Source: Maribellus maritimus
GTDB lineage: Bacteria > Bacteroidota > Bacteroidia > Bacteroidales > Prolixibacteraceae
Length of the DNA stretch: 64,000 bases
NCBI RefSeq assembly: GCF_022267315.1
Contig: NZ_JAIKLE010000017.1
Location: 62,001 to 126,000 of the forward strand
Reading direction: 5' to 3'
Below are positions 4,116 to 62,233 of the stretch, in pieces. Under the pieces are notes generated by a model, which worked only from the letters and a program-made list of their open reading frames with translations, made no database searches and was not told where the DNA came from. The first letter of the stretch is position 1. Each line of letters opens with the position of its first letter. Both the position numbers and the translations under genes were made by a program.

Positions 4116-4121
4116 ATTTTT

Positions 4122-5945: not shown

Positions 5946-6005
5946 AAAAACTGTCTTTTACTTCAGGTTCATAATTCGGATTTGGGTGTTTGATACAAAA
6001 TCTGT

Positions 6006-6030
6006 TGCAAGGTTTTTGCCAAACCTTGCA
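6006..6030. promoter_or_regulatory. Perfect 10-bp inverted repeat in the treZ/glgX divergent region
   Basis: TGCAAGGTTT (6006-6015) and AAACCTTGCA (6021-6030) are exact reverse complements around a 5-nt spacer. They sit 61-85 bp upstream of the treZ start and about 150 bp upstream of glgX. It could be an operator for a sugar-responsive regulator, a 5'UTR hairpin, or a dispersed Bacteroidota repeat. The sequence shows only the symmetry; no regulator gene is next to it. Confidence 0.4.
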
Positions 6031-6178
6031 TTAAAAATTGATGGAATGAAGTTTTAAGCAGATGTACTTTGAGGCCGCGCGGTAAAAAATTATAGCTGCT
6101 TGAACCGAATGGTATAGTATTTAGTAATTAGTAAATAATGAGGCAAAATCTACAGAATTCAAAAAAAACAGAGGATTT

Positions 6179-8341
6179 ATGAATAAACCAGACGAAACAA
6201 GAATTAGTTATAGTGGAAGAGTTTTACCGGGAAAACCTTATCCGTTGGGGGCAACGTACGACGGGAAAGGGGTAAATTTTGCTCTTTTTAGTGAAAATGC
6301 TACAGGAGTCCGCCTCTGTCTTTTTAAATATCCCGAGGATTTGCAGGAATATATGCATGTTGATTTTGACGAAGTAACCGACTATGTGTGGCATGCTTAT
6401 TTACCGGGAATCAAACCCGGGCAGCTTAATGGGTACCGTATTTTTGGACGGTATCAACCCAAAAAGGGGTTTCGTTTTAATTCACAAAAACTTTTGATTG
6501 ATCCTTATGCCAAATCAATTTATGGTCGGGTAGATGTGCGTAATAACATGTTTGACTACGAAATAAATAAAGAAGGTGAAAGAATCAGACTAAAAAAAGG
6601 CGGAGAAGACAGTGCTGCTGACATAAAAAAGTCAGTGGTTATTGATACGTCATTTGACTGGGAAGGAGTTGTTAAACCCGATATCTCCATGCACAACTCG
6701 ATTATTTATGAATTGCATGTAAAAGGTTTTACTGCAAGGCATCCGGGGATTCCGGAGGCAGAGCGCGGAAGCTATAAAGCTTTGGCTAATCCGCAAATCA
6801 TAAATTATTTTAAAGAGCTGGGAATAACAGCTATCGAGTTAATGCCGATACATCACTTTGTACACAATAAATTTTTACTTGATAAAGGACTTTCTAATTA
6901 TTGGGGCTATAATTCCATCGGTTATTTTGCTCCTCATGCAGAATACAGCGCTTCTGGTGTCAGAGGTGAACAAGTTACCGAATTTAAAGAAATGGTAAAA
7001 GCTTATCACCAGGCAGGTATCGAAGTGATCCTTGATGTGGTTTACAATCATACCGCAGAAGGAAATCATTTAGGGCCAACACTGGCATTTAGGGGGATTG
7101 ACAATCACCACTACTACAGGTTGGAGCGTAAAAAGCCTTTGTATTACACCGATTACACCGGAACCGGAAATACATTAAATATGCTTAGCAGCCGAACTCT
7201 CCAACTTGTTATGGACAGCCTCAGGTATTGGGCAACCGAGATGCAGGTTGACGGTTTTCGGTTTGACCTTGCATCAACGCTTGCTCGGGGGCTTTACGAT
7301 GTGGGAAAACTTTCGACTTTTTTGGATACGATCCATCAGGACCCGATTATTTCACAATTGAAACTGATTGCTGAACCATGGGATTTGGGGGAAGGTGGTT
7401 ACCAGGTTGGTAATTTTCCGGTGCTGTGGGCAGAGTGGAATGGGAAGTTTCGCGACTCTGTGCGGAAATTCTGGCGCGGCGACGAAAGCCAGGTTAGTGA
7501 ACTGGCTTACCGTTTAAGTGGAAGTAGCGATTTATATAAAGATAACGGAAAATTGCCTTCATCAAGCATTAATTTTGTAACAGCACACGACGGTTTTACG
7601 CTGCACGACCTTGTAAGCTATAATAAAAAGCATAACGAAGACAATCAGGAAGACAGCAGGGATGGTGAAGATCATAATATCAGCTGGAATAGCGGAGTGG
7701 AAGGTCCTACTGATGATCCGGAAATAAATAAACTCAGAGAAAAACGAAAACGTAATTTTTTGAGTACCCTTTTGTTGAGTCAGGGAGTTCCGATGATTAG
7801 CCACGGCGATGAGTATGGACGGACGCAAAACGGTAATAACAACGCATATTGTCAAGATAATGAAATTGCCTGGATGGATTGGGATTGGGATGAAAAACAG
7901 AAAAATTTATTTGAGTTCACAAAAAAAATAATTTCAATCAGAAACGAACATCCGATATTACATCCGCGACGTTATTTTAAAAACAGAAGTATACAGGGCG
8001 AAGGAGTTTTTGATATCCGCTGGTTGAATACAGATGGAATAGACATGAGTCAGGAGGAATGGGACACCAGTTTTATTCGCGCTATGGGAATGTTGTTAAA
8101 CGGAGAACTGATGAAAGAGGTAGATGAGTTTGGAAATAGTTTAAAAGAAGAGATTTTGCTTATTTTGGTAAATAGTTATTGGGAACCGATAACATTTACA
8201 TTGCCACACGAAGGCTTAGCGCCGAATTGGGAAATATTGGCAGACACCGAAAAAGAAAACACAGATTATCCTTTTCTTACGGTACAGAATGTTTATGAAA
8301 TTCAGGCCCGATCTCTGGTTTTGCTAAAGAACTTATTGTAA
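6179..8341 (+). CDS. glgX: Glycogen debranching enzyme GlgX/TreX
   Basis: Hydrolyses alpha-1,6 branches of glycogen, supplying linear malto-oligosaccharides to TreY/TreZ and phosphorylase. The 720-residue protein starts with the GlgX hallmark PGKPYPLGATYDGKGVNFALF (18-38, CBM48), then DVVYNHTAEGN (286-296), GFRFDLASTL with nucleophile D363, LIAEPWDLG with E399 and FVTAHDGFTLHDLVSYN with D471. The C-terminal beta domain occupies about 600-720. It is transcribed away from the treZ operon, across a 233-bp region with an inverted repeat. Length is normal for GlgX. The next gene is 170 bp downstream, so it is probably monocistronic. Confidence 0.95.
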   Translation: MNKPDETRISYSGRVLPGKPYPLGATYDGKGVNFALFSENATGVRLCLFKYPEDLQEYMHVDFDEVTDYVWHAYLPGIKPGQLNGYRIFGRYQPKKGFRFNSQKLLIDPYAKSIYGRVDVRNNMFDYEINKEGERIRLKKGGEDSAADIKKSVVIDTSFDWEGVVKPDISMHNSIIYELHVKGFTARHPGIPEAERGSYKALANPQIINYFKELGITAIELMPIHHFVHNKFLLDKGLSNYWGYNSIGYFAPHAEYSASGVRGEQVTEFKEMVKAYHQAGIEVILDVVYNHTAEGNHLGPTLAFRGIDNHHYYRLERKKPLYYTDYTGTGNTLNMLSSRTLQLVMDSLRYWATEMQVDGFRFDLASTLARGLYDVGKLSTFLDTIHQDPIISQLKLIAEPWDLGEGGYQVGNFPVLWAEWNGKFRDSVRKFWRGDESQVSELAYRLSGSSDLYKDNGKLPSSSINFVTAHDGFTLHDLVSYNKKHNEDNQEDSRDGEDHNISWNSGVEGPTDDPEINKLREKRKRNFLSTLLLSQGVPMISHGDEYGRTQNGNNNAYCQDNEIAWMDWDWDEKQKNLFEFTKKIISIRNEHPILHPRRYFKNRSIQGEGVFDIRWLNTDGIDMSQEEWDTSFIRAMGMLLNGELMKEVDEFGNSLKEEILLILVNSYWEPITFTLPHEGLAPNWEILADTEKENTDYPFLTVQNVYEIQARSLVLLKNLL

Positions 8342-16549: not shown

Positions 16550-16833
16550 AAAAAATATATCACAATCTTTTTAATTTGTTTTTGTTACGCCTTTACAAGT
16601 GAGATAGGGGGCTTTTCAAGTTGCTTCGATTGCTTTGTTAATTGTTTTCTTTTTAAAAAGAATTAATAGCTGATCGATTCGAAAAACAAAATGGGGCAAA
16701 TTGTCCAGATTTTAGAAAAACTTTGATTATCAGGTTTATTAACTGCGTTTTCTTAAAGATGTTCTGCATCTTCTGTTATTTTTGTAATGAAGTTTTATGG
16801 ATGTTGTTAATCTTCTTTATTAAAAAAATAGGC

Positions 16834-19800
16834 ATGTCCTTATTTCGTAAAATATCAATTTTGTTTGAGAAATCATCTTGGAGATCAGGATTTTTCGAAA
16901 AAGTATACGGTATTCGGTCTGTAGTTTTATCGCCGGTTTTTTCGCTAATTTTGACGGTTGTTTTTCTGTTAGCATTCGAAAGTGTTGCTGCGCAAAACTG
17001 GAATTGGACGGGAGATGTTAGCAACGACTGGCACGAAGCTGCCAACTGGGATCAGGGAAGTGTGCCGGATGGCAACGCTAAAGTGATTATAGGTCTTATT
17101 GCATCTGGTATTTATCCGGAAATAAAAAGCGATGTAACAGTTTCAACCCTTACTGTTAGTGATTGGTATGGCGGAGCTATAGCCGTGGTGAATGGTGCAA
17201 CACTTACCATTGAAAATAATCTTGATATTCAGGACTACGGAGAAATATTACTTGACAGCGGGAATCTTCAATTTAATGGAAAAGGGAATAACGGACACGA
17301 TATTACCATGGCGTTTCTCAATACTTCTATCAGGATCATTAATTCTGGAACACTAAACTCGCCGGATTGTAAATTAACCATAAATGGTGAATTGATACTT
17401 GAGGACGGGAATATTAATCTGGGGGATGGGTTTGAGTTGGCCTCGGGGAAGACTTTTGATGTGTTGCGGGGAAGTGTAAATGTGTATGGCTCAACATTGA
17501 TTAAAGGAACGCTAAATGGAGGAGTCGGAAATTTTGTTTTTGACGGGGATTCCTCGAATAGCACCCACAAGGCTGAAATAAGAAGTGAAGGGCGTTTTTA
17601 CATGTCTCCTTCCGCTTCTGATGTGCAGACCTTGGATTGTACTTCTGATGATCCCGAATTCTCTGGTGGAACTGTTGATTTTTATACACCGTGCTACATT
17701 CAGAACTCCGGTTATTTTTACGGAGGAAATGCGTATGTTACTTTTTACAATTCGATTAGCCCGAATGGAACAGCCGTGATAGAAACTCATAATGGTATGC
17801 TTTTGTTTAAAGGAGATCTTACTGCTTATGGTACAGCTAATATAAATATTACATGTAGAGGCACACTTCAGGTAAACGGGAATACTACTTTGAAATCAGC
17901 AGGCTATATAAATGCTGTAAGTGGTGATATTTATTTTGGAGGCAGTTTAAGAACTGAAAACAGCAGTGGAACAATAAATGCAGGAGGAAGTACAATTTAT
18001 TTTAGCGGAAGCAGCTTTGAAAATGAAGGTTTTTTTAATGCAGGAACAAGTACTTTTATTTTTAATGGAGACAATCAGGTGTTTAGTACACACAGCTGGA
18101 GGGATGACAATACGTTTTATAATCTTGTTGTAGAAAGCGGAGCTGATGTGCAGTCTACCCACAATGTGATGGTTTTAAATGATTTGGAAGTTGGTGAAAC
18201 TGGGAGTTTTACGATTGAGCCTGGTAAAACGCTCGATGCAGTTGGTTATGTTACCGGCGAAGATTACATTTTTACCAATCGTCCGTATATTGTATCGTTA
18301 GTAATTAATTCAGAAAATACAATCACGGCCATTTTTAACGAACCCCTGGATCCTGTTTCATCACAAACTGCATCTAATTACCGGGTAGAAAATGAGACGG
18401 GGAATACAATTGACTATCCAAAAAATCCGGTTCTTGGAGGGGCAAATAACAATGAGGTTTCCTTGGTACTTGGTTTTAATATTGCGTCGGATGTTAATTA
18501 TTATCTTATCGGGAATAATGTTAAAAATTTGAATAATTATACTTTAAGTGCTAATCATAAAAAAAGATTTCTGGAAACAGAGCCGGCAAATTTTTGGAGA
18601 TGGGCAGGAACAATTGATTCAGAATGGGAAAAAGCGGGGAACTGGGTAAAGAACAAACTGCCTCAAACCAGTTCACATGTTGTTATCCCGATAACACCAA
18701 ATGATCCCCTGATATCGTCGCAGGGGAACCGTATTTTTGATCTTGAAATAAAGACAGGAGCATCGTTAACGATCGGCTCAACAGGGAATTTAACTGTGGA
18801 TAACAGTGTTTCAAACAGTGCGGGATCCGGAGGTTTACTTATTGCTTCTGATACCGAAGGAACCGGTTCGTTAATTCATAATACCAACGGCGTTTTGGCA
18901 ACATTTCAACGGTATATTTCGGGCGAACCTCAAACATGGCAAATGATTTCTTCGCCTGTGGCAGACCAGGAAATTTCGGGAAATTTTACACCTACCGGGG
19001 GGAGTGATGCATACGGCGACAATACACGATACGATTTTTATTCGTGGTATGAGCCGGATACCTCCTGGGTGTATCTTCTGAATACCAATCAGCCGCCAAC
19101 GTGGCTGACAAGCAATAACAATAGTAATAATTTTATATCAGGAAGGGGGTATCTCATTTCTTACAAGGATGCCCATCCAACCAAAGCTTTTCAGGGAACC
19201 CTGAGTAACGGAGAAGTTTCTGTTCAATTGTCCAAAACAGCAGGAACGGGAACAGAGTTTGGATTTAACCTCGTTGGAAATCCGTATCCTTCTTCTGTCG
19301 ACTGGAAATCTTCCGGCTGGGGAAGAAACACATTGGAAGGTAATAATCAAGGTTATGATATCTGGATTTGGAGCGAAACAAACAATAATTATGGTGCTTA
19401 CAATTCAGCTTCTGCATCAGATGATGGTACTCTTGGAGTTTCGCGTTATATAGCACCAACTCAGGGATTTTTTGTGAAAGCCAGTCAATCGGGAGTGCTT
19501 TCCATGAGTAATTCCGTCAGGGTAAATGAAGGAGCCGGAAATTGGCTTAAAAATGCTAATAGCACTCAGAATAGAATTGTGGTTGATGTGAAATCTACCG
19601 ACGGATTTGGTAAAGATGAAGTTATTATTGAATTTGGACATACGGGACAAGAAACGGGTACGGCGAAACGATTTAGTTTTGTGCCTGCCTCTCCGAGTTT
19701 GTTTCTGGAGGAAGAGCAAATGGCTTACTCAATACGCTTGTTGGGAGAAAAAGAAGATTATCCGGTTTTGCCCGTCTCTTTTGATGCCGGAGAAAACGGA

Positions 19801-20220
19801 AATTATGAACTTACCTTTCAATTTAATTCAACAGCTTTTGAGACCTTTAAATTGTATGATAGAATTACCGGTCAATGGAATGATATAGAAGAAGGAGAAG
19901 TCTATTCTTTTGAAGCTGAAAAAGACGAAAAAACCGACCGTTTTGTTTTGCAAATTGTATCAGGAGATTATGCAGATCCTTACGAAACACTTCCGGTTAT
20001 TATTTATTCTGAACAAAGAAAAATAACAGCTGATTTACGTCTTGTCGAAGGCGAATACACTTGTGATATTTATACTCTGACAGGGCAGAAATTAGTGACC
20101 CGCAAACTTTTCGGGGGACAGACCGCAGAGTTTGTTGTCCCCTCGGCAAGTTCGATAGTTATTGTTCAGATAGTGGGGCAAGACGGAAGAAAAATAGAAA
20201 AAGTCCCTGTTATTTATTAG
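16834..20220 (+). CDS. Large secreted surface protein with an atypical T9SS-like C-terminus
   Basis: From the ATG at 16834 the protein has 1128 residues. An upstream in-frame ATG at 16723 would add 37 hydrophobic residues before the signal peptide, so I prefer 16834. The signal ends near SVAAQ. A module NWTGDVSNDWHEAANWD (about 51-67) begins a repetitive beta-rich region (to about 480) of glycine/asparagine-rich strands, likely a right-handed beta-helix. An SbsA-like Ig domain follows (IVSLVINSENTITAIFNEPLDP), then a second WRWAGTIDSEWEKAGNW module (about 590) and a beta-rich C-terminal half. The last about 80 residues (YTCDIYTLTGQKLVTRKLF) resemble a T9SS sorting domain but lack the usual YPNP start. 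It is probably an adhesin or surface-layer protein; the ligand is unknown. Confidence 0.8.
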   Translation: MSLFRKISILFEKSSWRSGFFEKVYGIRSVVLSPVFSLILTVVFLLAFESVAAQNWNWTGDVSNDWHEAANWDQGSVPDGNAKVIIGLIASGIYPEIKSDVTVSTLTVSDWYGGAIAVVNGATLTIENNLDIQDYGEILLDSGNLQFNGKGNNGHDITMAFLNTSIRIINSGTLNSPDCKLTINGELILEDGNINLGDGFELASGKTFDVLRGSVNVYGSTLIKGTLNGGVGNFVFDGDSSNSTHKAEIRSEGRFYMSPSASDVQTLDCTSDDPEFSGGTVDFYTPCYIQNSGYFYGGNAYVTFYNSISPNGTAVIETHNGMLLFKGDLTAYGTANINITCRGTLQVNGNTTLKSAGYINAVSGDIYFGGSLRTENSSGTINAGGSTIYFSGSSFENEGFFNAGTSTFIFNGDNQVFSTHSWRDDNTFYNLVVESGADVQSTHNVMVLNDLEVGETGSFTIEPGKTLDAVGYVTGEDYIFTNRPYIVSLVINSENTITAIFNEPLDPVSSQTASNYRVENETGNTIDYPKNPVLGGANNNEVSLVLGFNIASDVNYYLIGNNVKNLNNYTLSANHKKRFLETEPANFWRWAGTIDSEWEKAGNWVKNKLPQTSSHVVIPITPNDPLISSQGNRIFDLEIKTGASLTIGSTGNLTVDNSVSNSAGSGGLLIASDTEGTGSLIHNTNGVLATFQRYISGEPQTWQMISSPVADQEISGNFTPTGGSDAYGDNTRYDFYSWYEPDTSWVYLLNTNQPPTWLTSNNNSNNFISGRGYLISYKDAHPTKAFQGTLSNGEVSVQLSKTAGTGTEFGFNLVGNPYPSSVDWKSSGWGRNTLEGNNQGYDIWIWSETNNNYGAYNSASASDDGTLGVSRYIAPTQGFFVKASQSGVLSMSNSVRVNEGAGNWLKNANSTQNRIVVDVKSTDGFGKDEVIIEFGHTGQETGTAKRFSFVPASPSLFLEEEQMAYSIRLLGEKEDYPVLPVSFDAGENGNYELTFQFNSTAFETFKLYDRITGQWNDIEEGEVYSFEAEKDEKTDRFVLQIVSGDYADPYETLPVIIYSEQRKITADLRLVEGEYTCDIYTLTGQKLVTRKLFGGQTAEFVVPSASSIVIVQIVGQDGRKIEKVPVIY

Positions 20221-20511: not shown

Positions 20512-21015
20512 ATGGACGCTTTGATATTTTGTAAATTTCCTAGGTGCTTGCATATAATAATCAGATTGAAAAATACTTTTGTATTGACGATTGTATTTTT
20601 ATTTATTATGTTAGGTTTTGGAAAGGTTGGCGCACAGGTAAGGGCCACTGGACATGTATTTGCTGAAATAGTAGAACCGGCAATGCTTACTGCCAGTACC
20701 AGCAACGATCACATTATTTATAATAATGAGAATACAACATCATCAGATTTGATTCTTGCAGAAATAGCTGTTGCCGGAAGCGCTGATACTGATATGGGTG
20801 TATCGGTTCAAACTACAGTGCTGGAAGGAAAAAATGGAGAAATTTATTCTTTTGATACTTTCTTTTGTCCCGATTCTAATCAGTCGGCGGCCGGGAATAC
20901 CATAGATGCTGATAAAAGAGTATTTAAGCTAAACGGAACACCACAAAAAGACATTGTCGGGGAAAAAAATAATATGTTTACCGGGCAATATGAGGTAACA
21001 TTTATGTACAATTGA
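20512..21015 (+). CDS. Pilin-like secreted protein 1 (divergent, DUF4402-type layout)
   Basis: The first of four small exported proteins, 167 residues from the ATG at 20512; a GTG at 20464 in frame would add 16 residues. A long N-region precedes a hydrophobic signal ending near KVGAQ. The mature start VRATGHVFAEIVEPAMLTA alternates hydrophobic residues, as does ITAEVFAEVIEALAA of the protein at 22041. The end YEVTFMYN has the penultimate tyrosine of chaperone-usher subunits. The central LNFG-like motif is missing and there are 23 extra residues around FFCPDSNQSAAGN, so it is a distant member. Its role, whether minor subunit or adaptor, is inferred only from layout and neighbours. Confidence 0.65.
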   Translation: MDALIFCKFPRCLHIIIRLKNTFVLTIVFLFIMLGFGKVGAQVRATGHVFAEIVEPAMLTASTSNDHIIYNNENTTSSDLILAEIAVAGSADTDMGVSVQTTVLEGKNGEIYSFDTFFCPDSNQSAAGNTIDADKRVFKLNGTPQKDIVGEKNNMFTGQYEVTFMYN

Positions 21016-21422
21016 TGTATCCTTTTTTAAACCTTTTGGGTGTGTCTTTCGTCATTTATATAAAATCTCTGCTGTTACAAATCCTGATTTTACTTTCCGT
21101 TTCCTTTTTCTGTCTGTTTAAAAGCTCAGCAATGAAAATAAAATAAAAACTGAGTGATGTAGATTTCCAAAATCCGGAATTTTCGTCCCGCTTTCCCAAT
21201 CGATCTAATTTATACTTATTTTTTTATTCTTTCCCCTGTTATCTTAAAATGAGTCTGCGTCCCATTTTGAACACTCTATTCCCTTGGGGAGAGTGTTTTT
21301 GTGTTGATTGGTGATGTTATATTGTTGTTTATCAGTGTTTTGCATAAAAAGGCATGCGCATTGCTTAAGGGGTGGCACGAAAATGTTAAACGAAAATTAA
21401 TAAAATTTAAAAACACAAAATC
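21016..21422. other. Intergenic region before the major DUF4402 gene
   Basis: A 407-bp gap without any supportable open frame. It holds a terminator-like hairpin (21270-21300) and an AT-rich leader directly before the ATG at 21423. I see no clear TAnnTTTG box. Its size, compared with the 12-14 nt gaps further downstream, suggests that the DUF4402 gene has its own promoter and leader. Confidence 0.5.
21270..21300 (+). terminator. Terminator-like hairpin upstream of the DUF4402 gene
   Basis: AACACTCT (21270-21277) pairs with AGAGTGTT (21290-21297). The loop can form an inner CCC/GGG stem, and five T's end at 21300. It lies 255 bp after the stop of the preceding gene and 123 bp before the next start, so it could end the upstream transcript or act in a long leader. 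Confidence 0.5.
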
Positions 21423-21959
21423 ATGAAAAAGTTAGTTTTTTTATTCGCAAGCCTTTTTATTATCGTAGTTGCAACGCAGAGTGTAAAAGCACAAGAATCG
21501 GCGACTGCAGAAAGTTCTGCTACAATTATTACGCCGATTAGTATTTCTAAGAATACGAGTGCTGTGGGAGGAGGAGATTTAAATTTTGGTAACATCGCAG
21601 TTCAGTCAACTAATGGAGGAACTGTTATTTTATCTACTGACCCAGAACAAGACAGGGAAGCTACTGGTGGAGTTACATTGCCCGTCTCAACGGGAATAGT
21701 AAGCCCAGCATCCTTTACAGTAACAGGAGATGGAGAAAGGACTTTTTCTATAAGCCTACCAACTACTTCAATAGTTTTAACAAGTGGAGAAAATGAAATG
21801 ACTTTAGGCTCATTTGAAAGTTCTCCAAGTGGTTCGAGTTCACTTTCAAGTGGTACAAAAACTGTTACAGTTGGTGGAGTTCTTCAAGTTAATGCACAAC
21901 AACCAGCAGGTGTATATACAAATGCAAATGGATTGGAGGTAACTGTTAACTATAATTAA
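21423..21959 (+). CDS. DUF4402 protein, candidate major pilin subunit
   Basis: A 178-residue secreted protein with signal peptide ending VKAQ. It carries the full DUF4402 pattern: SATIITPISISK (beta strand A), DLNFGNIAV (about 55-63), GGTVILST, a central FTVTGDGERTFSISLP (about 99-114), the KTVTVGGVLQV block (about 146-156), and a C-terminal strand GLEVTVNYN whose penultimate residue is Tyr. DUF4402 domains are Ig-like beta sandwiches resembling donor-strand subunits. A strong terminator follows at once (21976-22008), a typical arrangement for an abundantly expressed subunit with limited read-through. It is upstream of the chaperone and usher genes. Pilin function is inferred; the DUF4402 match is direct. 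Confidence 0.88.
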   Translation: MKKLVFLFASLFIIVVATQSVKAQESATAESSATIITPISISKNTSAVGGGDLNFGNIAVQSTNGGTVILSTDPEQDREATGGVTLPVSTGIVSPASFTVTGDGERTFSISLPTTSIVLTSGENEMTLGSFESSPSGSSSLSSGTKTVTVGGVLQVNAQQPAGVYTNANGLEVTVNYN

Positions 21960-21975
21960 GATACAAAACGATTTC

Positions 21976-22008
21976 AAAAAAAGGGCGGCCAGGGTTGCCC
22001 TTTTTTTT
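21976..22008 (+). terminator. Strong Rho-independent terminator after the DUF4402 gene
   Basis: An A-run plus GGGC (21976-21986) pairs with GCCC (21997-22000) followed by eight T's (22001-22008), giving an 11-bp stem and a 10-nt loop. It lies 17 nt after the stop codon of the major DUF4402 gene and 33 nt before the next one, and would uncouple their expression levels. Confidence 0.85.
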
Positions 22009-22040
22009 ACCCAGTTGTTAAGGTTTTAAAATTCACAAAC

Positions 22041-22553
22041 ATGTACCGTTATTTTTTTATCGCTTTTATTTCTTTCTTTCTCATACCTGGTGTGGCACGT
22101 TCGCAAGAAAGCAGCATTACAGCAGAGGTGTTTGCCGAAGTAATTGAAGCGCTGGCCGCCAACGAAGATCAGGCTTTAAACTTTGGCCGTTTTACAACGG
22201 GGAATAACGGTGGTTCAATTGTTATTTCTCCGGGAGGAATTCGTTCGGCGCAGGGATCGGTAATTGCGGCTGGCGGCGGATACAGTCCCGGTAAATTTTT
22301 AGTGGAAGGAGAGCCGGGCGCTACTTTCAGTATACAGCTTCCCCGAACAGCCACTACATTGGTGCATTCTGAAAGCGGAAAAACGATGGATGTTGAAGGC
22401 TGGGTTTCGGACCCTCCATCGGGAGATGCAGCTACCTTGTCGGACGGAGAACGTTTGGTAAGTATAGGAGCTACGCTCAACATCGGTCCGGTTGATGAGA
22501 ATCCAGTTGGTATATATTCGGGTTCTTTTATTGTAACCTTTGCCTACAATTAG
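22041..22553 (+). CDS. DUF4402 protein, candidate pilin subunit 3
   Basis: A 170-residue exported protein, signal ending GVARSQ. The mature N-terminus SSITAEVFAEVIEALAA is an alternating hydrophobic segment, as expected for a donor strand. Then come ALNFGRF (about 50-56), GGSIVISPGG, FLVEGEPGATFSIQLPRTATTL (about 88-109), ERLVSIGATLNIG, and the C-terminus GIYSGSFIVTFAYN. That ending has a glycine 14 residues from the end and a penultimate tyrosine, the classical chaperone-usher subunit signature. It follows the strong terminator and is 172 bp before the chaperone gene. Confidence 0.85.
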   Translation: MYRYFFIAFISFFLIPGVARSQESSITAEVFAEVIEALAANEDQALNFGRFTTGNNGGSIVISPGGIRSAQGSVIAAGGGYSPGKFLVEGEPGATFSIQLPRTATTLVHSESGKTMDVEGWVSDPPSGDAATLSDGERLVSIGATLNIGPVDENPVGIYSGSFIVTFAYN

Positions 22554-22676
22554 CCATTTCATAATATTCCGGAGTATTTAAGATCTTATCGTTTTGTTTA
22601 TTTAAACCTCATTCCTGTTCTGTAAGTTTATTTTCCGCCGACACGTGCTGGTGATTATTTTTGTATCACAGTATTG

Positions 22677-22708
22677 TTGTTGATATTTATTAAAAAAATG
22701 TAGTTTTG
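22677..22708 (+). promoter_or_regulatory. Bacteroidota-type promoter for the chaperone-pilin-usher genes
   Basis: TTG at 22677-22679, then 21 nt, then TAGTTTTG at 22701-22708, fits the Bacteroidota consensus TTTG-N19/21-TAnnTTTG. It lies 18 nt before the chaperone ATG, so the leader would be very short. It would give the chaperone, the fourth subunit and the usher a promoter independent of the major subunit. Confidence 0.5.
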
Positions 22709-22725
22709 AAAGAAAATTCCCAATT

Positions 22726-23601
22726 ATGATACAGAAAAAACAGATTAATACCGCTCAGTTTAGACTATCCTTTTTGTATAAAAGCATGTTGTTCTTTTCG
22801 GTTGTTGTTCTTCTTCTTCCACAAATTAGCAGGGCACAGGGAGATTTGCTGATAACACCGCGGCGTGTCGTTTTTGAAGGGGGTAAACAAAGAGAGGAAA
22901 TAACACTGGCGAATACGGGACAGGACACCGCTTATTATTCAATTTCTTTTTTACAATACAGAATGACCGAGGATGGCAATTTCAAGGAAGTAACTGAGCC
23001 GGAGGAAGGACAAATGTTTGCAGATCCGTATATCCGGTTTTTTCCACGCTCGGTCGAGCTTGCTCCGGGTGAGTCACAGGTGGTTAGAATGCAGTTGAGA
23101 CGGATGCCCAATATGGTTGATGGTGAATATCGCTCTCATTTGTATTTTAGGGCCGTGCCGGAAGAAAAACCATTGGGCGAAGAAGATATATTAACCGATA
23201 GTACAGCAATTGGAATACGATTGACTCCTATTTTTGGAATTTCCATACCGGTTATAGCAAGGATTGGTAACCTTTCGTCTGACGTAGTTTTGAGCGATTT
23301 GAATGTTCAGCAAAATAGTCAGGGAGCGAATGTGCTTAATGTTGTGCTTAACCGGGAAGGAACCCAGTCGGTTTATGGCGACCTGAAAGCAGAATACATT
23401 ACTCCTGAAGGCGAAAAGTACTATGTTGGGCTTGTAAAAGGAATTGCTGTTTATACACCCAATCTGTTGCGGCGTTTTACCATGACACTCAATACTCCTG
23501 AAGGAATTGAATTAAATAAGGGGAAATTGCTTGTTCGGTACAGCAGTTCAAACGAAGCAAAACCTCAGGTGTACGATGAAAAAGAATTGGGGCTAAAATA
23601 A
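22726..23601 (+). CDS. PapD-like periplasmic pilus chaperone
   Basis: A 291-residue protein with an N-terminal signal ending near ISRAQ. The first Ig-like domain carries DLLITPRRVVFEGGKQREEITLANTG (about 43-68), with the basic residue expected at the subunit-anchoring position. The motif PYIRFFPRSVELAPGESQVVRMQLRR (about 101-126) and GEYRSHLYFRAVPEE (about 132-146) match COG3121 fimbrial chaperones. A second domain (about 185-291) completes the boomerang. The partner subunits are the flanking DUF4402 proteins. It is 12 nt before the fourth subunit gene, which is 14 nt before the usher gene. The fold assignment is confident. Its client range and whether it performs donor-strand complementation are inferred. 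Confidence 0.87.
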   Translation: MIQKKQINTAQFRLSFLYKSMLFFSVVVLLLPQISRAQGDLLITPRRVVFEGGKQREEITLANTGQDTAYYSISFLQYRMTEDGNFKEVTEPEEGQMFADPYIRFFPRSVELAPGESQVVRMQLRRMPNMVDGEYRSHLYFRAVPEEKPLGEEDILTDSTAIGIRLTPIFGISIPVIARIGNLSSDVVLSDLNVQQNSQGANVLNVVLNREGTQSVYGDLKAEYITPEGEKYYVGLVKGIAVYTPNLLRRFTMTLNTPEGIELNKGKLLVRYSSSNEAKPQVYDEKELGLK

Positions 23602-23613
23602 AAAAGACGCTTT

Positions 23614-24171
23614 ATGCCATTCGGAGAAAATCCCGCAAGTCATCAAAACTTTTGTTTACGAGCAATTTTTATTCGCTTCTGTAAAACTTTTATCCTTGTT
23701 GTGGCTTTTTTAATTTTTTCAGAAAATTCATTTGGACAATCTCCGTTTCCTCCGCCGAATCAGTTGCAGGTTTTTGCGGCCCAGGAATTAAGTTTTGGCA
23801 GCTTTTATACAGGAGCTTCCGGCGGAGAAGTTATTGTCAGCCCGGAAGGCAACTGTATGACTAACGGGTCGGTTATGGAACTTGCCCTTTCTCCTGCTAC
23901 TCCTGCTGTATTCGATGTCCGGCTTATTCCCGGTAGAATAGTTCACATTTCTTTTCCTGCCTCGGCAATGCTTACCAGAGTTGGGAGCAGTGAGAGTATG
24001 ATGATTAGCGGGTTTACCTCTGATAAGCAAGGAAATTATTTTGTTACTACATCTGCTCATCCTTTTATTAATCCGGTGAAAGTTGGTGCTACGCTTCATG
24101 TTGGCAGTGAAGCTTCCAATCCCTCAGGAGATTACGTTGGTAGTTTTTCAGTAACATTTATTCAGGAATAA
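23614..24171 (+). CDS. DUF4402 protein, candidate tip or terminating subunit
   Basis: 185 residues with a long N-region and signal ending SFGQ. It has the DUF4402 core: QELSFGSFYTGASGGEVIVSPEGN (about 57-80), VFDVRLIPGRIVHISFPASAML, NPVKVGATLHVG, and GDYVGSFSVTFIQE with glycine 14 from the end. Two differences from its paralogues are clear. It lacks the alternating N-terminal strand, since the mature start is a proline-rich SPFPPPNQ running straight into the core. Its last residues are QE rather than YN. A subunit that can accept but not donate a strand would sit at a fibre end, so I propose a tip or cap role. It lies between the chaperone and usher genes with 12-14 nt gaps. Confidence 0.8.
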   Translation: MPFGENPASHQNFCLRAIFIRFCKTFILVVAFLIFSENSFGQSPFPPPNQLQVFAAQELSFGSFYTGASGGEVIVSPEGNCMTNGSVMELALSPATPAVFDVRLIPGRIVHISFPASAMLTRVGSSESMMISGFTSDKQGNYFVTTSAHPFINPVKVGATLHVGSEASNPSGDYVGSFSVTFIQE

Positions 24172-24185
24172 AACCTCATTTCAGA

Positions 24186-26822
24186 TTGAAAAGAGTGCAA
24201 ATAAAAACTCAGCCGTCAGAAATAATAAGGCCAGATTTTTTTTCAAGTCTGACCGGTTTTATGGTGGTTAAGCTTTTGATAATTTTGCTTCCTTTGTTGC
24301 TTTTTTGTAATATTTCAATAAGTCAGAATGTTGAATTTGAGGAGATTCCTGTTACCTTGAGAGTAGAAGGAGTGGGAGCTACGAACCTGGATCCCTTGTA
24401 CAGTTATGATGTGGAAAAGTTATTTTTACCAGTCTTAGATGTTTTCCACCTGCTTCAGATAAAAGCGGAATCCTCGTTAAATATGGACAGGATATCTGGT
24501 TTTATGGCAGATGAAAGCAACAAATATATGATAGACAACATAAATAAACAGGTTTTTGCCAATGGGAAAACGTATAATTTAGAAGTTACTGATTTAATAA
24601 AAACTGAATTTGGTTTGTATTTAGATCATCAACTGTGGGGAGAGTTATTTGGTTTGTATTGCGATTTTAATTTCAGAAGTCTTACTGTAAATGTTAAACC
24701 AGGCTTTGAAGTTCCGGCCATACGGGAAATGCGGCTCAAGCAGTTTCGCGAAAATGTAAATATTCTTAAAGGGGAAGAAAAGGTAGATACATCTATAAAC
24801 CGCGATTATCATTTTTTAAAGTTCGGAATGGTTGACTGGGCTGTCAGTTCTACACAAAGTACCGCACAATATAACGATACAAGAATCTGGTTGGGAACAG
24901 GAGCCGAATTGTTTGGAGGAGAAACAAGCCTGCTGTTAAATTATTCATCCCGCGATGGTTTTAATAACCGAAACCAGCAGTATTACTGGCGTTGGGTGAA
25001 CAATCAGGCAAAAATGGCCCGGCAAATCAGGATCGGAAAAATCAGTTCTTCTGCAATTGCATCCATATACGACCCATTGATTGGAATGAGTATTACCAAT
25101 GCCCCAACAACTTACCGCCGTTCTTTTGGAGAATATACAATCAATGACTATACAGAACCGGGTTGGACGGTGGAGTTGTATGTAAACAATGTGATTGTTG
25201 ATTATCAAACAGCTGATGCCTCGGGATTTTATAGTTTTAATGTGCCGCTTGTATACGGAACGTCGCAGGTAAGACTAAAATTTTATGGCCCCTATGGAGA
25301 AGAGCGGACAAAAGAAGAATTTCTTAATATACCGTTTAATTTTTTGCCTGCCGGAGAAATGGAATATACGTTGAGTTCAGGTATTGTTATGGACGGGGAT
25401 TATTCCAGGTTTGGCCGCGCAGAAGTAAAGTATGGAGTGAGCCGATTTTTAACAATCGGTGGAGGAATAGAATATCTTTCCTCAATTGCAAATGGAGATA
25501 AAATTCCTTTTTTTTTGGCTTCAGTCACTCCTTTTCCCAACTTTATGTTAACGGGCGAATATGCCGATGGTGTGCGTACAAAAGCGCTTGTAAACTACAG
25601 GTTGGCGTCAGGTCCAATGCTTGAACTTAACTATGTTCTTTATGATAAAGAACAGCAGGCAATAAGGCTCAACTATCTGGAAGAACGTGGCGCAACTTTG
25701 TCTGTGCCTTTGAATTTTAAATTTTTAAATGGTTACACCCGTTGGTCTTTTAAACAAAATGTATACGAAATGCTTACGTATAACACTGCCGATGTAACTT
25801 TTTCATCCTTCTTTGGCAATGTAAATACAAACATAAGCGCTTACGCCAACTGGTTGGGAGGAAGAGACCCTTATATATACAGTAATCTTGGTTTGGGAAT
25901 CAGGCTGGGGCATGGCTTTACAGTCAGACCACAAAGCCAGGTCGACATCACGAATAAAGATATAACTTCTGTAAAAGCAGAGGTTGAGAAACGTATTGCC
26001 CGATCGGGATACTTATCCGTTTCCGGAGAAGAGAATTTTAGATCCTCTTATCGCAGTTTGCAGTTTTCATTTCGTTGGGATTTTTCTTTTTCTCAGGTTA
26101 ATTTCTCTGCCCGTGTTTCCAATAATGAATTTTTGTCGACTCAGGGGGCCCGTGGCAGTTTTGCTTTTGGTGGAGGCAATGGATATATTCATAAAGATAA
26201 CAGATCGGCAATTGGGCGATGTGGAATTGCTGTTGTCCCATTTGTAGACATTGATCATGATGGTTTTAAAGATTCGGATGAACCATTTGCTCAAGGATTG
26301 AGCATTGGATTGAGAGGAGGGAGGACTTTAAAAAATCTCCAGGACTCTATAATCAGAGTTGTTGGATTAGAACCATATACAAGTTATGTATTAACGCTCG
26401 ATGATAAAGGCCTGGAACAAATTTCGTGGCAGCTGGAGCATAAAAGCTATCGTATTTATACCGATCCAAATCAGTTCAAAAAAGTATATATTCCTGTTTT
26501 GCCTATGGGGGAAGTGAATGGTTGGGTTTATTTGAATGACGACAGGGGGGAAAAAGGCCAGGGACGGATTGTTGTAAACTTTTACAATGCTGACGGAGAA
26601 ATGGTTGCCTCAACAATGACTGAGAGAGACGGCGGCTTTACTTTTTTGGGTTTGCCACCCGGACAATATTATGCTGAAGTGGATAGAGCACAATTGGAAA
26701 GTTTAAAAATGAAATCAGTACCGGTAAAAACAGACTTTACAATAAAACCTATGGCCATTGGCGACATTGTTTATGATATTCAGTTTGTAATTCAGCGTAT
26801 CTCTGAAGATATCAAAGAATAA
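24186..26822 (+). CDS. Usher-like outer-membrane assembly protein
   Basis: 878 residues from a TTG at 24186 (14 nt after the previous stop, matching the operon spacing); an ATG at 24261 would give an 853-residue protein with a compact signal peptide. Domain order (TTG numbering): signal ending ISISQ (47); an N-terminal domain with IPVTLRVEGVGATNLDP (54-70); an outer-membrane beta-barrel from about 210 to 685; inside it a plug-like segment, GWTVELYVNNVIVDYQTADA then GFYSFNVPLVYG (about 325-358), matching the usher pattern of a named appendage strand followed by a glycine-phenylalanine turn; then FVDIDHDGFKDSDEP (about 686) and a carboxypeptidase-regulatory-like domain (about 778-840). Overall sequence is far from FimD/PapC. 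The chaperone and subunit neighbours support the role. Confidence 0.8.
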   Translation: MKRVQIKTQPSEIIRPDFFSSLTGFMVVKLLIILLPLLLFCNISISQNVEFEEIPVTLRVEGVGATNLDPLYSYDVEKLFLPVLDVFHLLQIKAESSLNMDRISGFMADESNKYMIDNINKQVFANGKTYNLEVTDLIKTEFGLYLDHQLWGELFGLYCDFNFRSLTVNVKPGFEVPAIREMRLKQFRENVNILKGEEKVDTSINRDYHFLKFGMVDWAVSSTQSTAQYNDTRIWLGTGAELFGGETSLLLNYSSRDGFNNRNQQYYWRWVNNQAKMARQIRIGKISSSAIASIYDPLIGMSITNAPTTYRRSFGEYTINDYTEPGWTVELYVNNVIVDYQTADASGFYSFNVPLVYGTSQVRLKFYGPYGEERTKEEFLNIPFNFLPAGEMEYTLSSGIVMDGDYSRFGRAEVKYGVSRFLTIGGGIEYLSSIANGDKIPFFLASVTPFPNFMLTGEYADGVRTKALVNYRLASGPMLELNYVLYDKEQQAIRLNYLEERGATLSVPLNFKFLNGYTRWSFKQNVYEMLTYNTADVTFSSFFGNVNTNISAYANWLGGRDPYIYSNLGLGIRLGHGFTVRPQSQVDITNKDITSVKAEVEKRIARSGYLSVSGEENFRSSYRSLQFSFRWDFSFSQVNFSARVSNNEFLSTQGARGSFAFGGGNGYIHKDNRSAIGRCGIAVVPFVDIDHDGFKDSDEPFAQGLSIGLRGGRTLKNLQDSIIRVVGLEPYTSYVLTLDDKGLEQISWQLEHKSYRIYTDPNQFKKVYIPVLPMGEVNGWVYLNDDRGEKGQGRIVVNFYNADGEMVASTMTERDGGFTFLGLPPGQYYAEVDRAQLESLKMKSVPVKTDFTIKPMAIGDIVYDIQFVIQRISEDIKE

Positions 26823-28171: not shown

Positions 28172-28290
28172 TTAGTTGTGTTGAATTGAATTTCCTTTCG
28201 AACACTAACAATAAATAATTTTGAAAGTTATTCGATAAGAAAACTTTTTAAAATTCCATTATATTTAACAAGATTAATTAACCTTTGCTT

Positions 28291-31017
28291 ATGAATTTAA
28301 GAACTGTAGCGGTTGGGTTGAAATTTATTCGTGCTTTTAGTATCGTTTTTTTCGGCCAGTTTACCGGTATACTTTTATGGGCAGGTGAATCGGATTTCAT
28401 TTTGGATGAGCTGGCTGTTTTCGAAATTTCAGAAGAAAAATCAGGTATTACATTTAGTCAATCCGGAAATTATTATAAGGAGGCTTTTTACCTTTCTTTA
28501 TCAACTACTCCGACATCGACAATAATTTTCACCACCGACTGTTCTACTCCAACTATAAATAATGGTACGGTGTATACTGACCCCATCCTAATTGATTCAA
28601 CCACTATAATAAAGGCAATTGCTTTTTCAGATACCAATACATCTGAAATGGTTACAAACAGCTATTTATTTGTGTCGAGCGTTAAAGAACAATCGAAAAA
28701 TCATATTGGATTTCCTGAAACATGGGGTGGTTCCAAAACCATACCTGCCGATTATGAAGTGGATCCTGAAGTTATAAATGATCCGGAGTACACATTTGAA
28801 ATTGATTCAGCTTTTTCAGATCTTCCGTCACTGTCGTTAACCATGGATGTGAATAGTTGGTTTAATCCGGATACCGGAATGTATGTGGGTTATCCAAACT
28901 CTGATATTTCAATAGAAAAAGCAGTAATTGCTGAGTTTATTTTTCCGGAAGAAATTGAAGAAAGTTTTGCTGTTTCCTGCGGTGTGCAAAACCAGGGAGG
29001 CACAAGTATTGTAAACTGGAAATCACCTAAACAATCAATGAGACTGCTATTTAAAGAAATGTATGGCCCAACCAAATTGAAATATAAACTTTTCCCTGAT
29101 TCAGAAATAAATTCAATAAATACACTGGTGGTTGATGCGATGTTAAATTCCACCTGGATTCATCCAACCGACGAAGATCAACGTTTTCATGCGCTTTACC
29201 TGCGCGACCAGTTAACGTCAGACCTGCAAAACGATATGGGCAGGTTAAGTTTTCACGGAAGATATTTTCATTTGTATCTAAACGGGTTGTATTGGGGAAT
29301 TTGTAATTTACACGAAAGGCCCGATGATGCTTTTTTAGCAGAATATCTGGATGCAGAAAGAGAAAAATTTGATGTATTAAAACACAATCCGAATACAGTT
29401 GTAGCAGGGACAAATAGTTTCTACACGACCATGCTCACAAGTGCGCGGAATGGTTTTTCGGAAGTCAGACAGTTGTTGGATTTTGAGAAATACCTCGATA
29501 TTTCGGCTTTTATCGATTACATGCTGTTGAATTTTTATCTGGGAAATTACGACTGGGCGCATCAGAATTTTTATGTTGCAAGAAACCAAACATCAGCAGA
29601 CGGATTTAGGTTTTATCCTTGGGATTCAGAACTTGTTATGCGTTTTGCCGATGTTACCTACGACAACACCGGAAAAAACGATGAAGGCGGACCCACGGAA
29701 ATTCACAGCTTGTTAAAAGAAAATGAGGAGTACAGGATGATGTTTGCCGATGCTGTGTACAAACATCTTTTTAATGATGGAGCTTTAACACCTGAAAATT
29801 TCAGAAAACGATTTTTGTTTCGCAAAAGTGAGATTGAAAATGCAATCATTTTGGAGTCAGCCCGGTGGGGAGATTATCGTAAAGACGTTTCGGGAACAAC
29901 CTACACAAAAAAAGATTTCTGGATTCAGGAAGTAAACAGAATTCTGGATGATTACATTCCCAAAAGGCGAGATATTGTTATAGGACAATTAAGAAAAAGC
30001 AGCAATAATTTGTTTCCGAAATACCTGCCTCCGGAGATTGAGGCAAATACCCTGGAAGACGGAGAAATCGAGATAACCTTAAATTCGCAACATGAATCTT
30101 TGGGGGAAGTATATTTTACTTTGGACGGTACCGACCCGAGAGCAGTTGGCGGAGAAGTAAACGGAGCTGTGTATGCTGACAAATTTGTTGTTGGAAAGAC
30201 TTTGATTTTGAAAGCCCGGTTTTATTCTGCGTCAGATAAAACATGGAGTGCTCTCACTGAAGAGAAGTTTGTCTTTGATGATGTTTACGGAGGAGATATA
30301 GTAATCAATGAAATTATGTATCACCCGGAAGATGATTATCCTGAATTTATTGAGATTATGAATTTTGGAGAAGATCCCGTGAATTTGAAAGGATTTAGAT
30401 TTTCCGGTGGAATTAATTATTTGTTCGGCACCAATGAGAATATCAACCCCGATGCCGGGCTTGTACTTACCAACGACAATGTTTTATTTTCCAGAGTATA
30501 TAAATTTAGTGCTTTTGGTCAGTTTCAGAAAAATTTGAGCAATAGTGGAGAAACCATTTATCTTACAAACGGGTTTGAGCAATTGATTGATTCTGTTGCC
30601 TATTCCGATACTATTCCTTGGCCAGAAGAGGCTGATGGAGACGGATATTCTCTCGAATTAAAAGATCCTGAACTGGATAATGCCTTGTGGTCCAGTTGGA
30701 GAGTTTCGGAGAAAATTTACGGCTCTCCTTATCATCAAAAATCACTGAAAGATACGGATGCTTTTATTTATCCAAATCCTTTTCTGTCGGATATTTATGT
30801 TGAGCTTGGAGATGAAAATCTGGCACAGGAATCATTTAAACTTGAAGTTTACAACCAGTTAGGAGTACGAATAAAAGTCGTTAAGGTCGAAAGTTTTAAT
30901 GCACAAATTCATGTTTCGCTGGCGAGTTTACCTTCCGGACTTTACTTTTTTAGATTAATTCCTGATAAAAAATCAATATTTAAATCGCAAATGCTAAAAG
31001 CAGTGAAATTGAAATAG
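28291..31017 (+). CDS. Secreted CotH kinase-like protein with CHB_HEX, lamin-tail and T9SS domains
   Basis: 908 residues from the ATG at 28291 (an in-frame TTG lies two codons earlier). Order: signal region (1-33); a chitobiase/hexosaminidase C-terminal-type domain (about 48-130, FTTDCSTPTINNGTVYTDPI); a CotH domain (about 160-560) with LYLNGLYWGICNLHERPDD and FRFYPWDSELVMRFADVTYDN, the last containing the metal-binding Asp of CotH kinases; a second CHB_HEX-like domain (VYFTLDGTDPRAVGGEVNG, about 610-628); a lamin-tail domain (DIVINEIMYHPEDDYPEFIE, about 670-689); and a type A T9SS sorting domain starting IYPNPF (about 828). CotH homologues phosphorylate proteins in other bacteria; the substrate here is unknown. 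Likely exported to the cell surface. Confidence 0.88.
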   Translation: MNLRTVAVGLKFIRAFSIVFFGQFTGILLWAGESDFILDELAVFEISEEKSGITFSQSGNYYKEAFYLSLSTTPTSTIIFTTDCSTPTINNGTVYTDPILIDSTTIIKAIAFSDTNTSEMVTNSYLFVSSVKEQSKNHIGFPETWGGSKTIPADYEVDPEVINDPEYTFEIDSAFSDLPSLSLTMDVNSWFNPDTGMYVGYPNSDISIEKAVIAEFIFPEEIEESFAVSCGVQNQGGTSIVNWKSPKQSMRLLFKEMYGPTKLKYKLFPDSEINSINTLVVDAMLNSTWIHPTDEDQRFHALYLRDQLTSDLQNDMGRLSFHGRYFHLYLNGLYWGICNLHERPDDAFLAEYLDAEREKFDVLKHNPNTVVAGTNSFYTTMLTSARNGFSEVRQLLDFEKYLDISAFIDYMLLNFYLGNYDWAHQNFYVARNQTSADGFRFYPWDSELVMRFADVTYDNTGKNDEGGPTEIHSLLKENEEYRMMFADAVYKHLFNDGALTPENFRKRFLFRKSEIENAIILESARWGDYRKDVSGTTYTKKDFWIQEVNRILDDYIPKRRDIVIGQLRKSSNNLFPKYLPPEIEANTLEDGEIEITLNSQHESLGEVYFTLDGTDPRAVGGEVNGAVYADKFVVGKTLILKARFYSASDKTWSALTEEKFVFDDVYGGDIVINEIMYHPEDDYPEFIEIMNFGEDPVNLKGFRFSGGINYLFGTNENINPDAGLVLTNDNVLFSRVYKFSAFGQFQKNLSNSGETIYLTNGFEQLIDSVAYSDTIPWPEEADGDGYSLELKDPELDNALWSSWRVSEKIYGSPYHQKSLKDTDAFIYPNPFLSDIYVELGDENLAQESFKLEVYNQLGVRIKVVKVESFNAQIHVSLASLPSGLYFFRLIPDKKSIFKSQMLKAVKLK

Positions 31018-61666: not shown

Positions 61667-62233
61667 CTAATCTGTTTTCCAAATAATTTTTTTGTCCAGC
61701 AAATTTTCAAGAGGAAAAGAGAATCTGAGTTGTTTGCCGAAATCAATTGCTTCATTCATCTCGTAATTTTGGTATTGAACCAGGTATGCAATCATAAAAT
61801 TACTTACCCTTCCGCAACTCGCACAATGAATGAATACTTTGTTGTAGCGGCTGTTTAGTGCGTCTCCAAATTTTATTAAATTTTCTTTTGTATATGAATC
61901 ATTTCCTAAAACAGGGATGGAAATATACTTCATTCCCAGAATGGCTGCCCTCTCTTTTTCGTTAAATGCTGATTTTGCGAATTCATCATTTTCTTTTTCT
62001 GAACGAAGATTAATTATTAAGTCTACTTCCTGCGTTTTTAGCCATTCGAATGTTTCCAGGTTGGGTTGTCCGCTAAAAAATAAATTTCCACTTTGATACA
62101 GATTTGGCGCAATTTCTCCCAGTTTTTGAATTTTGGGAAAGTCTTTCTTTTCAAAGGATTTCGAAAAAGATGTTTCAGTTATAAAAACAAGATTTATTAG
62201 CAGAAGCATTAATAAAAAAGATAAGGATTTCAT
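61667..62233 (-). CDS. Exported DUF442/tyrosine-phosphatase-like protein
   Basis: 188 residues with a signal peptide (hydrophobic 5-20, ending near TSFSKS). The domain starts APNLYQSGNLFFSGQPNLETFEWLKTQEVDLIINLRSEKE, the usual beginning of DUF442/dual-specificity-like phosphatases, and carries a P-loop HCASCGRVSNFMIAYL. This gives the C-x4-R spacing of the DUF442 group, with an extra cysteine where glycine is common. Location would be periplasmic. The substrate is unknown. Convergent with rnpB across its terminator. Confidence 0.85.
   Translation of the reverse strand: MKSLSFLLMLLLINLVFITETSFSKSFEKKDFPKIQKLGEIAPNLYQSGNLFFSGQPNLETFEWLKTQEVDLIINLRSEKENDEFAKSAFNEKERAAILGMKYISIPVLGNDSYTKENLIKFGDALNSRYNKVFIHCASCGRVSNFMIAYLVQYQNYEMNEAIDFGKQLRFSFPLENLLDKKIIWKTD

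Follow-up and report, generated by a model that had tools for sequence, protein, structure and literature searches.

A gene cluster in Maribellus maritimus (Bacteroidota) very probably builds hair-like surface fibres by means of a chaperone and an outer-membrane usher, and it belongs to a divergent branch of this pathway that has gone unrecognised. The cluster lies in a stretch of 64,000 nucleotides (nt), positions 62,001 to 126,000 of contig NZ_JAIKLE010000017.1, hereafter called the window, in whose coordinates all positions are given. We put the probability that this locus is a divergent chaperone-usher pathway building a fibre of DUF4402 proteins at about 0.88. As a first-pass annotation made from the sequence alone had listed them, six open reading frames (ORFs) were found on the + strand. 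They encode a divergent pilin-like protein, subunit 1 (20464 from a GTG or 20512 from an ATG, to 21015), two DUF4402 pilins with a donor-type N-terminal extension, subunit 2 (21423-21959) and subunit 3 (22041-22553), a PapD-like, putatively periplasmic chaperone (22726-23601), a further DUF4402 protein, subunit 4 (23614-24171), and the usher-like protein, the predicted outer-membrane assembly platform (24186-26822; 878 residues from a TTG, 853 from the ATG at 24261). The 12-14 nt gaps described between the last three genes hold for the 12 nt between chaperone and subunit 4, while the distance from subunit 4 to the usher is 14 nt from the TTG but 89 nt from the ATG. That annotation took 20512-26822 as the whole locus and so left out one likely component, a large protein encoded upstream (16723-20220); it also missed the existence of two subunit classes and a hairpin after subunit 2.

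A barrel of about 24 strands with a plug and C-terminal beta domains is the general plan of ushers, and the predicted structure of the 24186 protein (mean predicted local distance difference test, pLDDT, 84) shows the same elements. Its barrel (24816-26165) comprises 6 + 18 strands, a count read from DSSP elements, and the C-terminal beta domains (26190-26798) take up model residues 642-844. The plug-like domain (25116-25325; model strands 284-353) sits between barrel strands 6 and 7 and is modelled at low confidence, with a mean pLDDT of 56-74. When the model was compared with the PDB, ranks 1-18 in Foldseek and ranks 1-15 in VIA-align were all FimD or PapC, and these alignments span model residues 163-845 at 9-14% identity. 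As modelled, the protein folds as an usher rather than as a plain TonB receptor or a two-partner secretion (TPS) barrel. The earlier description of it as usher-like is thus borne out by the fold and not by family membership: no Pfam usher model matched the protein, Usher (PF00577) found nothing in the whole genome of the strain, though its E. coli control was positive, and only one of 50 usher relatives matched this model, at E 0.013.

Single E. coli K-12 sequences were too weak as targets to decide relatedness (2.5% and 0.6%), and for this reason K-12 protein families were used instead. In the resulting three-by-three comparison with hhalign, usher, chaperone and pilin profiles matched their own K-12 counterparts at 71.8%, 93.7% and 27.9%, respectively, and the six off-diagonal cells lay between 0.1 and 3.9%. 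When the usher was compared slice by slice with FimD-type domains, the barrel was the sole part to match (68.7%); the plug reached 0.9% and the C-terminal domains showed no sequence-profile match to their FimD counterparts, so that the assignment of these two comes from structure. The usher N-terminal domain (24336-24701) was not detectably related to that of FimD or PapC, with 0.1% in hhalign, no PapC_N match in Pfam and a position outside the structural matches; Cu_amine_oxidN1 weakly matched this domain in 8 of 50 relatives (best E 3.7e-4). Within the C-terminal beta domains, SdrD_B matched residues 785-834 (E 2e-9, Pfam), and against the PDB the alignment profile returned SdrD at the C-terminus (E 1.2e-6) plus chance matches, while the single sequence gave nothing useful (best E 0.29).

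The chaperone had been called PapD-type, which the profile comparison (93.7% over 212 columns against ten K-12 chaperones) and the gene linkage support, although PapD_N itself stays under its Pfam cut-off of 23 with 21.4 bits (E 2.5e-4). In Pfam scans fn3_5 fits the chaperone family somewhat better than PapD_N, and searches of the PDB gave nothing useful with the single sequence (best E 0.53) and no match with the alignment profile. Four residues, P107, R136 (within GEYRSH), R210 and Y243, are invariant in all 33 aligned relatives, the window sequence included; in six proteobacterial relatives P107 and R136 are kept throughout, R210 in five and Y243 in six. According to PMC4654587, one proline is invariant throughout the chaperone superfamily, and archaic and alternative chaperones are marked above all by an arginine in strand F. 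P107 corresponds to this proline, and R136 to the non-classical carboxylate-anchor arginine of strand F (Arg89 in CsuC and EcpB). In two alignments, of which the pairwise one is weak (alignment probability 3.6%), P107 and R136 pair with positions 80 and 109 of the EcpB precursor, which would be Pro60 and Arg89 given a signal peptide of 20 residues, and the correspondence rests on agreement with PMC4654587, the alignment itself being weak. Judged by these residues, the chaperone is of the non-classical (archaic or alternative) type. R210 and Y243 are perhaps candidates for the domain-2 anchor formed by Arg174 and Tyr196 in CsuC; EcpB Arg148 falls in an alignment gap and EcpB Tyr169 two columns off Y243.

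Three clear DUF4402 proteins and one divergent subunit had been proposed, and PF14352 (DUF4402) matched subunits 2, 3 and 4 well over its cut-off (E 4.8e-26, 1.5e-26 and 6.7e-21). Subunit 1 had no Pfam match, matched a profile built from DUF4402 relatives only weakly (E 1.1e-3, against 8.6e-5 for the equivalent protein of the sister genome G031), and ends in GQYEVTFMYN, which by eye resembles the C-termini of the other subunits. The AlphaFold2 model of subunit 3 (pLDDT 89.8) shows an Ig-like body and an N-terminal extension: the first strand begins at residue 39 and the preceding residues have no secondary structure. Its nearest solved folds are chaperone-usher pilins, at modest match scores, while the pilin alignment profile found chance matches alone in the PDB. 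A general Pfam scan returned neither a pilin of the spore coat U type nor a sigma usher; sigma usher and pilin profiles were not part of the comparison.

Type V pili (FimA, Mfa1) are the pilus type known for Bacteroidota and are likewise surface fibres of beta-sandwich subunits, and the locus might be read as genes of such a pilus with fortuitous neighbours. According to PMC5789003, which describes this pilus type for the phylum, type V subunits mature via signal peptidase II and further processing, and for P. gingivalis neither chaperone nor usher genes have been described; the present locus differs in having both. Pfam and NCBIfam scans of the four subunits found no fimbrillin family, the modelled subunit resembles chaperone-usher pilins, and the usher fold is present. 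Barring error in these fold and family results, the type V reading is already refuted.

The association of these genes was followed across the phylum in 395 evenly drawn Bacteroidota genomes. Usher matches occurred in 88 of them, about 50 with one alignment of more than 700 residues and the rest in pieces, and at least G210 and G409 matched by a C-terminal stretch alone, which need not be an usher. DUF4402 was found in 63 genomes (59 above the family cut-off and four below), all of them among the 88 usher-positive ones, and in 60 of the 63 the two were no more than 8 kb apart on the same contig. The Fisher P for co-occurrence (6e-53) counts related genomes as if they were independent and serves as a guide only. 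Because usher matches and DUF4402 co-occur in this way, the locus is not a chance assembly. With flanks of 1.5 kb inspected, chaperone and usher were neighbours in 27 of 30 loci, the present one included, and the three DUF4402 matches in the genome of M. maritimus all fall in this locus. Among the 61 nearest genomes (its own included) DUF4402 occurred in six, the same six that had a substantial usher match among the 38 of the 61 that were searched, while G011 gave a match of 43 residues; the system is thus patchy within the genus. Lack of such linkage in related genomes would have spoken against the proposal of a divergent chaperone-usher system with DUF4402 proteins as pilins, as would a foreign fold for the usher; usher fold, gene linkage and profile matches confined to the diagonal all support it.

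Comparison of the 80 best of 294 loci, these 80 coming from named records, revealed two classes of subunit. A DUF4402-type gene lies directly before the usher in 77 of the 80 loci, eleven of these matching weakly, and the encoded proteins differ at the N-terminus from those encoded further upstream. From the predicted cleavage site to the LxFG motif the median was 17 residues in usher-adjacent subunits (values for 55 of 67) and 25 in upstream subunits (35 of 62); these lengths follow from a crude cleavage rule that dropped the 12 adjacent and 27 upstream subunits giving no value, and six of the adjacent values are clearly wrong (L053, L096 and L117 through early start codons, L079 and L125 through a motif read later, and L092 through a cut sequence). 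A proline motif, defined as two prolines that stand side by side or are separated by a single P, R, Q, K or S within residues 16-70, was present near the N-terminus in 51 of 67 adjacent subunits and in one of 62 upstream subunits. Subunit 4, with 17 residues between predicted cleavage and LxFG, has the short, proline-bearing N-terminus and no donor-type extension, and the N-terminus of subunit 2 is extended as in the upstream class. Inspected by eye, two Polaromonas plasmids encode second DUF4402 proteins that also have a short N-terminus, there without the proline motif. A subunit lacking the donor extension could take only the far-tip position and would be used first. FimH sits at the tip of its pilus, and this analogy suggests that subunit 4 is a tip or initiating subunit. 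Subunit 2 is the likely major rod pilin, and we propose subunits 1 and 3 as minor or adaptor pilins.

Directly 3' of subunit 2 lies a hairpin resembling an intrinsic terminator (21976-22007, + strand), which begins 17 nt past the stop codon, has a stem of 14 bp (-17.4 kcal/mol, z -2.8) and is followed by a T-run. Of the upstream subunits in the window, subunit 2 alone scored such a hairpin in the cross-locus test, in which 24 of 62 upstream pilin genes did so, distributed over 23 of the 38 loci having such genes. The corresponding counts were 4 of 40 for chaperones, 6 of 66 for adjacent subunits and 35 of 228 for other ORFs, an uncurated class, with Fisher P values of 0.0014, 0.00012 and 0.00014, respectively; mononucleotide shuffles, a weaker control than dinucleotide shuffles, gave 8 in 1,240. 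In 20 of the 24 hairpins the T-run starts 39-50 nt past the stop. A second hairpin followed by a T-rich tract, a possible terminator between subunits 1 and 2 (21269-21298, + strand), folds at -14.8 kcal/mol (z -2.2 over 56 nt). A scan with a promoter and terminator tool listed no more sites than in shuffles (terminators 7 against a mean of 6.0), including part of the 21269-21298 hairpin but not the one at 21976-22007. We infer that the hairpin after subunit 2 acts as a brake on read-through that would keep the major pilin in excess.

These features also bear on a reading in which the usher-like protein is a secretion pore exporting DUF4402 monomers or short capsule-like material, the chaperone being a mere holdase and no long fibre being formed. 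Three points weigh in its favour: no fibre has been seen, the usher N-terminal domain differs from the FimD type, and the DUF4402 proteins are small and single-domain. An N-terminal extension that lies outside the Ig body and is short in exactly one subunit class, however, fits polymers built by donor strands, and many loci have several subunit genes, often with a hairpin 3' of one. We regard a mere pore as very unlikely.

In a chaperone-usher pathway as we picture it here, the subunits would leave the cytoplasm via Sec with ordinary signal peptides, as these were read by eye. Each subunit would be an incomplete Ig fold to which the PapD-like chaperone lends a strand, its C-terminal carboxylate being anchored in the chaperone cleft by R136, perhaps together with R210 and Y243. 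The complex of chaperone and subunit would dock on the usher, the plug would open, and the N-terminal extension of the incoming subunit would displace the chaperone strand from the previous one. Assembly would run from the tip, formed by subunit 4, to the base, with a rod of subunit 2, and the terminator after subunit 2 would let only part of transcription pass. The large protein encoded upstream would reach the surface through the type IX secretion system (T9SS).

This large protein (16723-20220, + strand; 1165 residues from a TTG, with an ATG at 16759), putatively an exported surface protein of T9SS type, was recognized through giant proteins encoded next to the usher in other genomes. A profile built from the C-terminal 190 residues of 40 such operon-linked giants, in which it was not itself a seed, matched it at E 9.4e-14, and it was the sole match in the window at E <=0.01. 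Giants with the shared C-terminal region were found in 52 of the 80 loci, a count that is partly circular as 40 of the 52 loci seeded the profile and 12 were found as non-seeds. The 53 ORFs are all on the strand of the usher, between chaperone and usher in 17 loci, upstream of the usher in 30 and only downstream in 5; in 26 of the 30 no chaperone was within reach, so that the interval between chaperone and usher is possible there too, and further giants are hidden by contig ends and the 10 kb flank. A tip-class subunit gene lies downstream of 46 giants. Its start is overlapped by 27 of these, in most cases by 4 nt, and another 13 stop 2-12 nt short of it, a spacing that argues for a single operon.

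By eye the C-termini of the giants are T9SS-like, and in NCBIfam scans three of three passed the TIGR04183 cut-off, as expected of T9SS cargo with a C-terminal sorting domain, but unlike the usual cargo the giants have their genes inside or next to a chaperone-usher operon. In Pfam scans of five large operon ORFs, none reached the PF18962 cut-off (best 25.5 of 27 bits). The T9SS signal of the window member is weak: it stays under the NCBIfam cut-off, with 13.1 of 40 bits for NF033708, and has no PF18962 match. A search of 12 genomes with the C-terminal profile A8 covered seven genomes without an usher and five of the six usher-bearing close relatives (its own included, G025 left out). In all five the best match was the operon-linked gene, with 147, 140, 215, 105 and 79.1 bits in G000 (the window's own genome), G031, G041, G019 and G027, against 31, 31, 81, 53 and 36 for the next best; in its own genome 16723-20220 thus stands against 30.6 bits. 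The window row (G000) and G041 are included in A8 and G031 is a near twin of G000, which leaves G019 and G027 as independent cases; in these two, the reading frames starting at the end of the usher are 3,649 and 3,659 codons long. The idea that the C-terminal region is unique to usher operons was rejected, as matches were found in all 12 genomes, the seven without an usher included. Further downstream in the window, 1.5 kb past the usher, 28285-31017 encodes a protein with CotH-kinase and lamin-tail domains whose T9SS tail exceeds the PF18962 cut-off. It is a second T9SS cargo and is unmatched by the profile of the operon-linked giants.

The 16723-20220 protein is probably an adhesive partner that is exported separately, and the chaperone-usher system is possibly coupled to T9SS. 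We tentatively consider, as a minority possibility, a composite fibre in which the pilus tip is without a lectin and the adhesive part is supplied by the T9SS-exported giant, docking on the tip or the base of the fibre; to our knowledge no pilus is known that combines a chaperone-usher fibre with a T9SS-exported adhesive in trans. The same genes could alternatively form a specialised T9SS accessory, in which chaperone, pore and DUF4402 proteins display or anchor the large T9SS cargo and no pilus is made. Several observations favour the accessory: in the 52 loci a giant of T9SS type shares the strand of the cluster and is encoded within it or next to it, its gene overlaps or abuts the start of the tip-class gene, and a SprA_N match in the genome of M. 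maritimus marks the T9SS translocon. The tie between giant and pilus is itself loosened by scores of 74.8 and 58.6 bits in the usher-less G002 and G008, so that the region is not peculiar to these operons, with the weakest operon-linked case (G027) hardly above the former, and mere proximity to T9SS genes is weak evidence because the genome holds 53 matches to the T9SS tail family. Yet plasmids of Pseudomonadota carry the DUF4402-chaperone-usher set with no giant among the annotated genes of the stretches examined, and 28 of the 80 loci show none, although many of these are truncated by a contig end or by the limit of the 10 kb flank. We consider the accessory reading unlikely.

The plasmids were met when the usher of the window, used as query, matched two Polaromonas plasmids. 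Searches with the Polaromonas usher and, separately, with the chaperone of the window returned the same seven of 72,556 plasmid records, from Polaromonas, Novosphingobium, Sphingopyxis and Pseudoalteromonas. In the six examined, the gene order was pilin-like gene or genes, chaperone and usher, with genes annotated as DUF4402 in five. The branch is thus common to Bacteroidota and to alpha-, beta- and gammaproteobacteria; in viral contigs no usher relative was confirmed. On two Polaromonas plasmids (L132, L155) the operon lies close to IS6 transposase genes and may move between plasmids. An extra small exported protein is encoded in proteobacterial loci (L132:3127-3534, L153:3496-3930 and L155:2706-3326), either in the interval from pilin to chaperone or with a DUF4402 gene on each side, and the one scanned had no Pfam match.

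Non-pathogenic carriers of the system include the soil bacterium Chitinophaga pinensis (L118) and Pedobacter hiemivivus (L107). Some loci of Bacteroidota depart from the common arrangement. Twelve Bacteroidales loci (L072-L076, L080, L082, L084-L086, L088 and L103) have an usher relative, but neither a chaperone nor a giant was found in them, and the subunit match is weak, covering about 150 residues (absent in L074). Their gene order is different, and in most of them genes for about 425 and 443 residues lie downstream. In Chitinophaga sp. CF118 (L094, 13033-22555) a second giant begins some 0.5 kb past the first usher and is itself followed by a second pair of pilin and chaperone, which suggests two systems in tandem. 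A chaperone (L058:8481-9336) and a DUF4402 gene (L057:6251-6789) are each split over two overlapping frames, either by sequencing error or as a broken gene. Elsewhere in the window, 2121-8341 holds a glycogen-type cluster with a GlgE-like maltosyltransferase, an alpha-amylase family protein and a CBM48 alpha-amylase-family protein.

Among known systems, the type 1 and P pili (FimC/FimD/FimA, PapD/PapC) resemble the locus in the usher barrel and C-terminal beta domains, and their K-12 members are remote profile homologues of its usher and chaperone. They differ in the N-terminal domain of the usher and in their pilins, which in K-12 have two invariant cysteines that the DUF4402 consensus lacks. 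With the alternative (alpha) pili, exemplified by Ecp, the locus shares the chaperone residues aligned with Pro60 and Arg89 of EcpB, while its usher profile gave 1.3% with EcpC, a weak test with a single-sequence target (FimD alone gave 0.6%). From the archaic (sigma) pili, such as Csu of Acinetobacter baumannii, the locus differs by its DUF4402 pilins, by an usher with no Pfam Usher match and an N-terminal domain unrelated by profile to that of FimD, by its Bacteroidota hosts, and by a single-domain, donor-less subunit class and a large partner of T9SS type; these differences are stated apart from any direct profile comparison with archaic ushers and pilins.

The available part of PMC4827864 names Proteobacteria, Spirochaetae, Cyanobacteria and Deinococcus-Thermus as the groups with ushers, and that of PMC4654587 places archaic systems in Proteobacteria, Cyanobacteria and Deinococcus-Thermus; Bacteroidota are named in neither. 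The chaperone-usher pathway is reported as lacking in the genome of C. hutchinsonii (PMC7906972). In the open-access literature, with most subscription journals and preprints outside the search, no paper on DUF4402 by name was found, and the matches listed held no report of a chaperone-usher system in Bacteroidota. About one in six of the sampled genomes of the phylum (63 of 395) has both DUF4402 and an usher relative that the Pfam usher model misses. The present system gives DUF4402 a likely function and would move the textbook boundary between pilus types, and it may link a pilus with the secretion system particular to this phylum.

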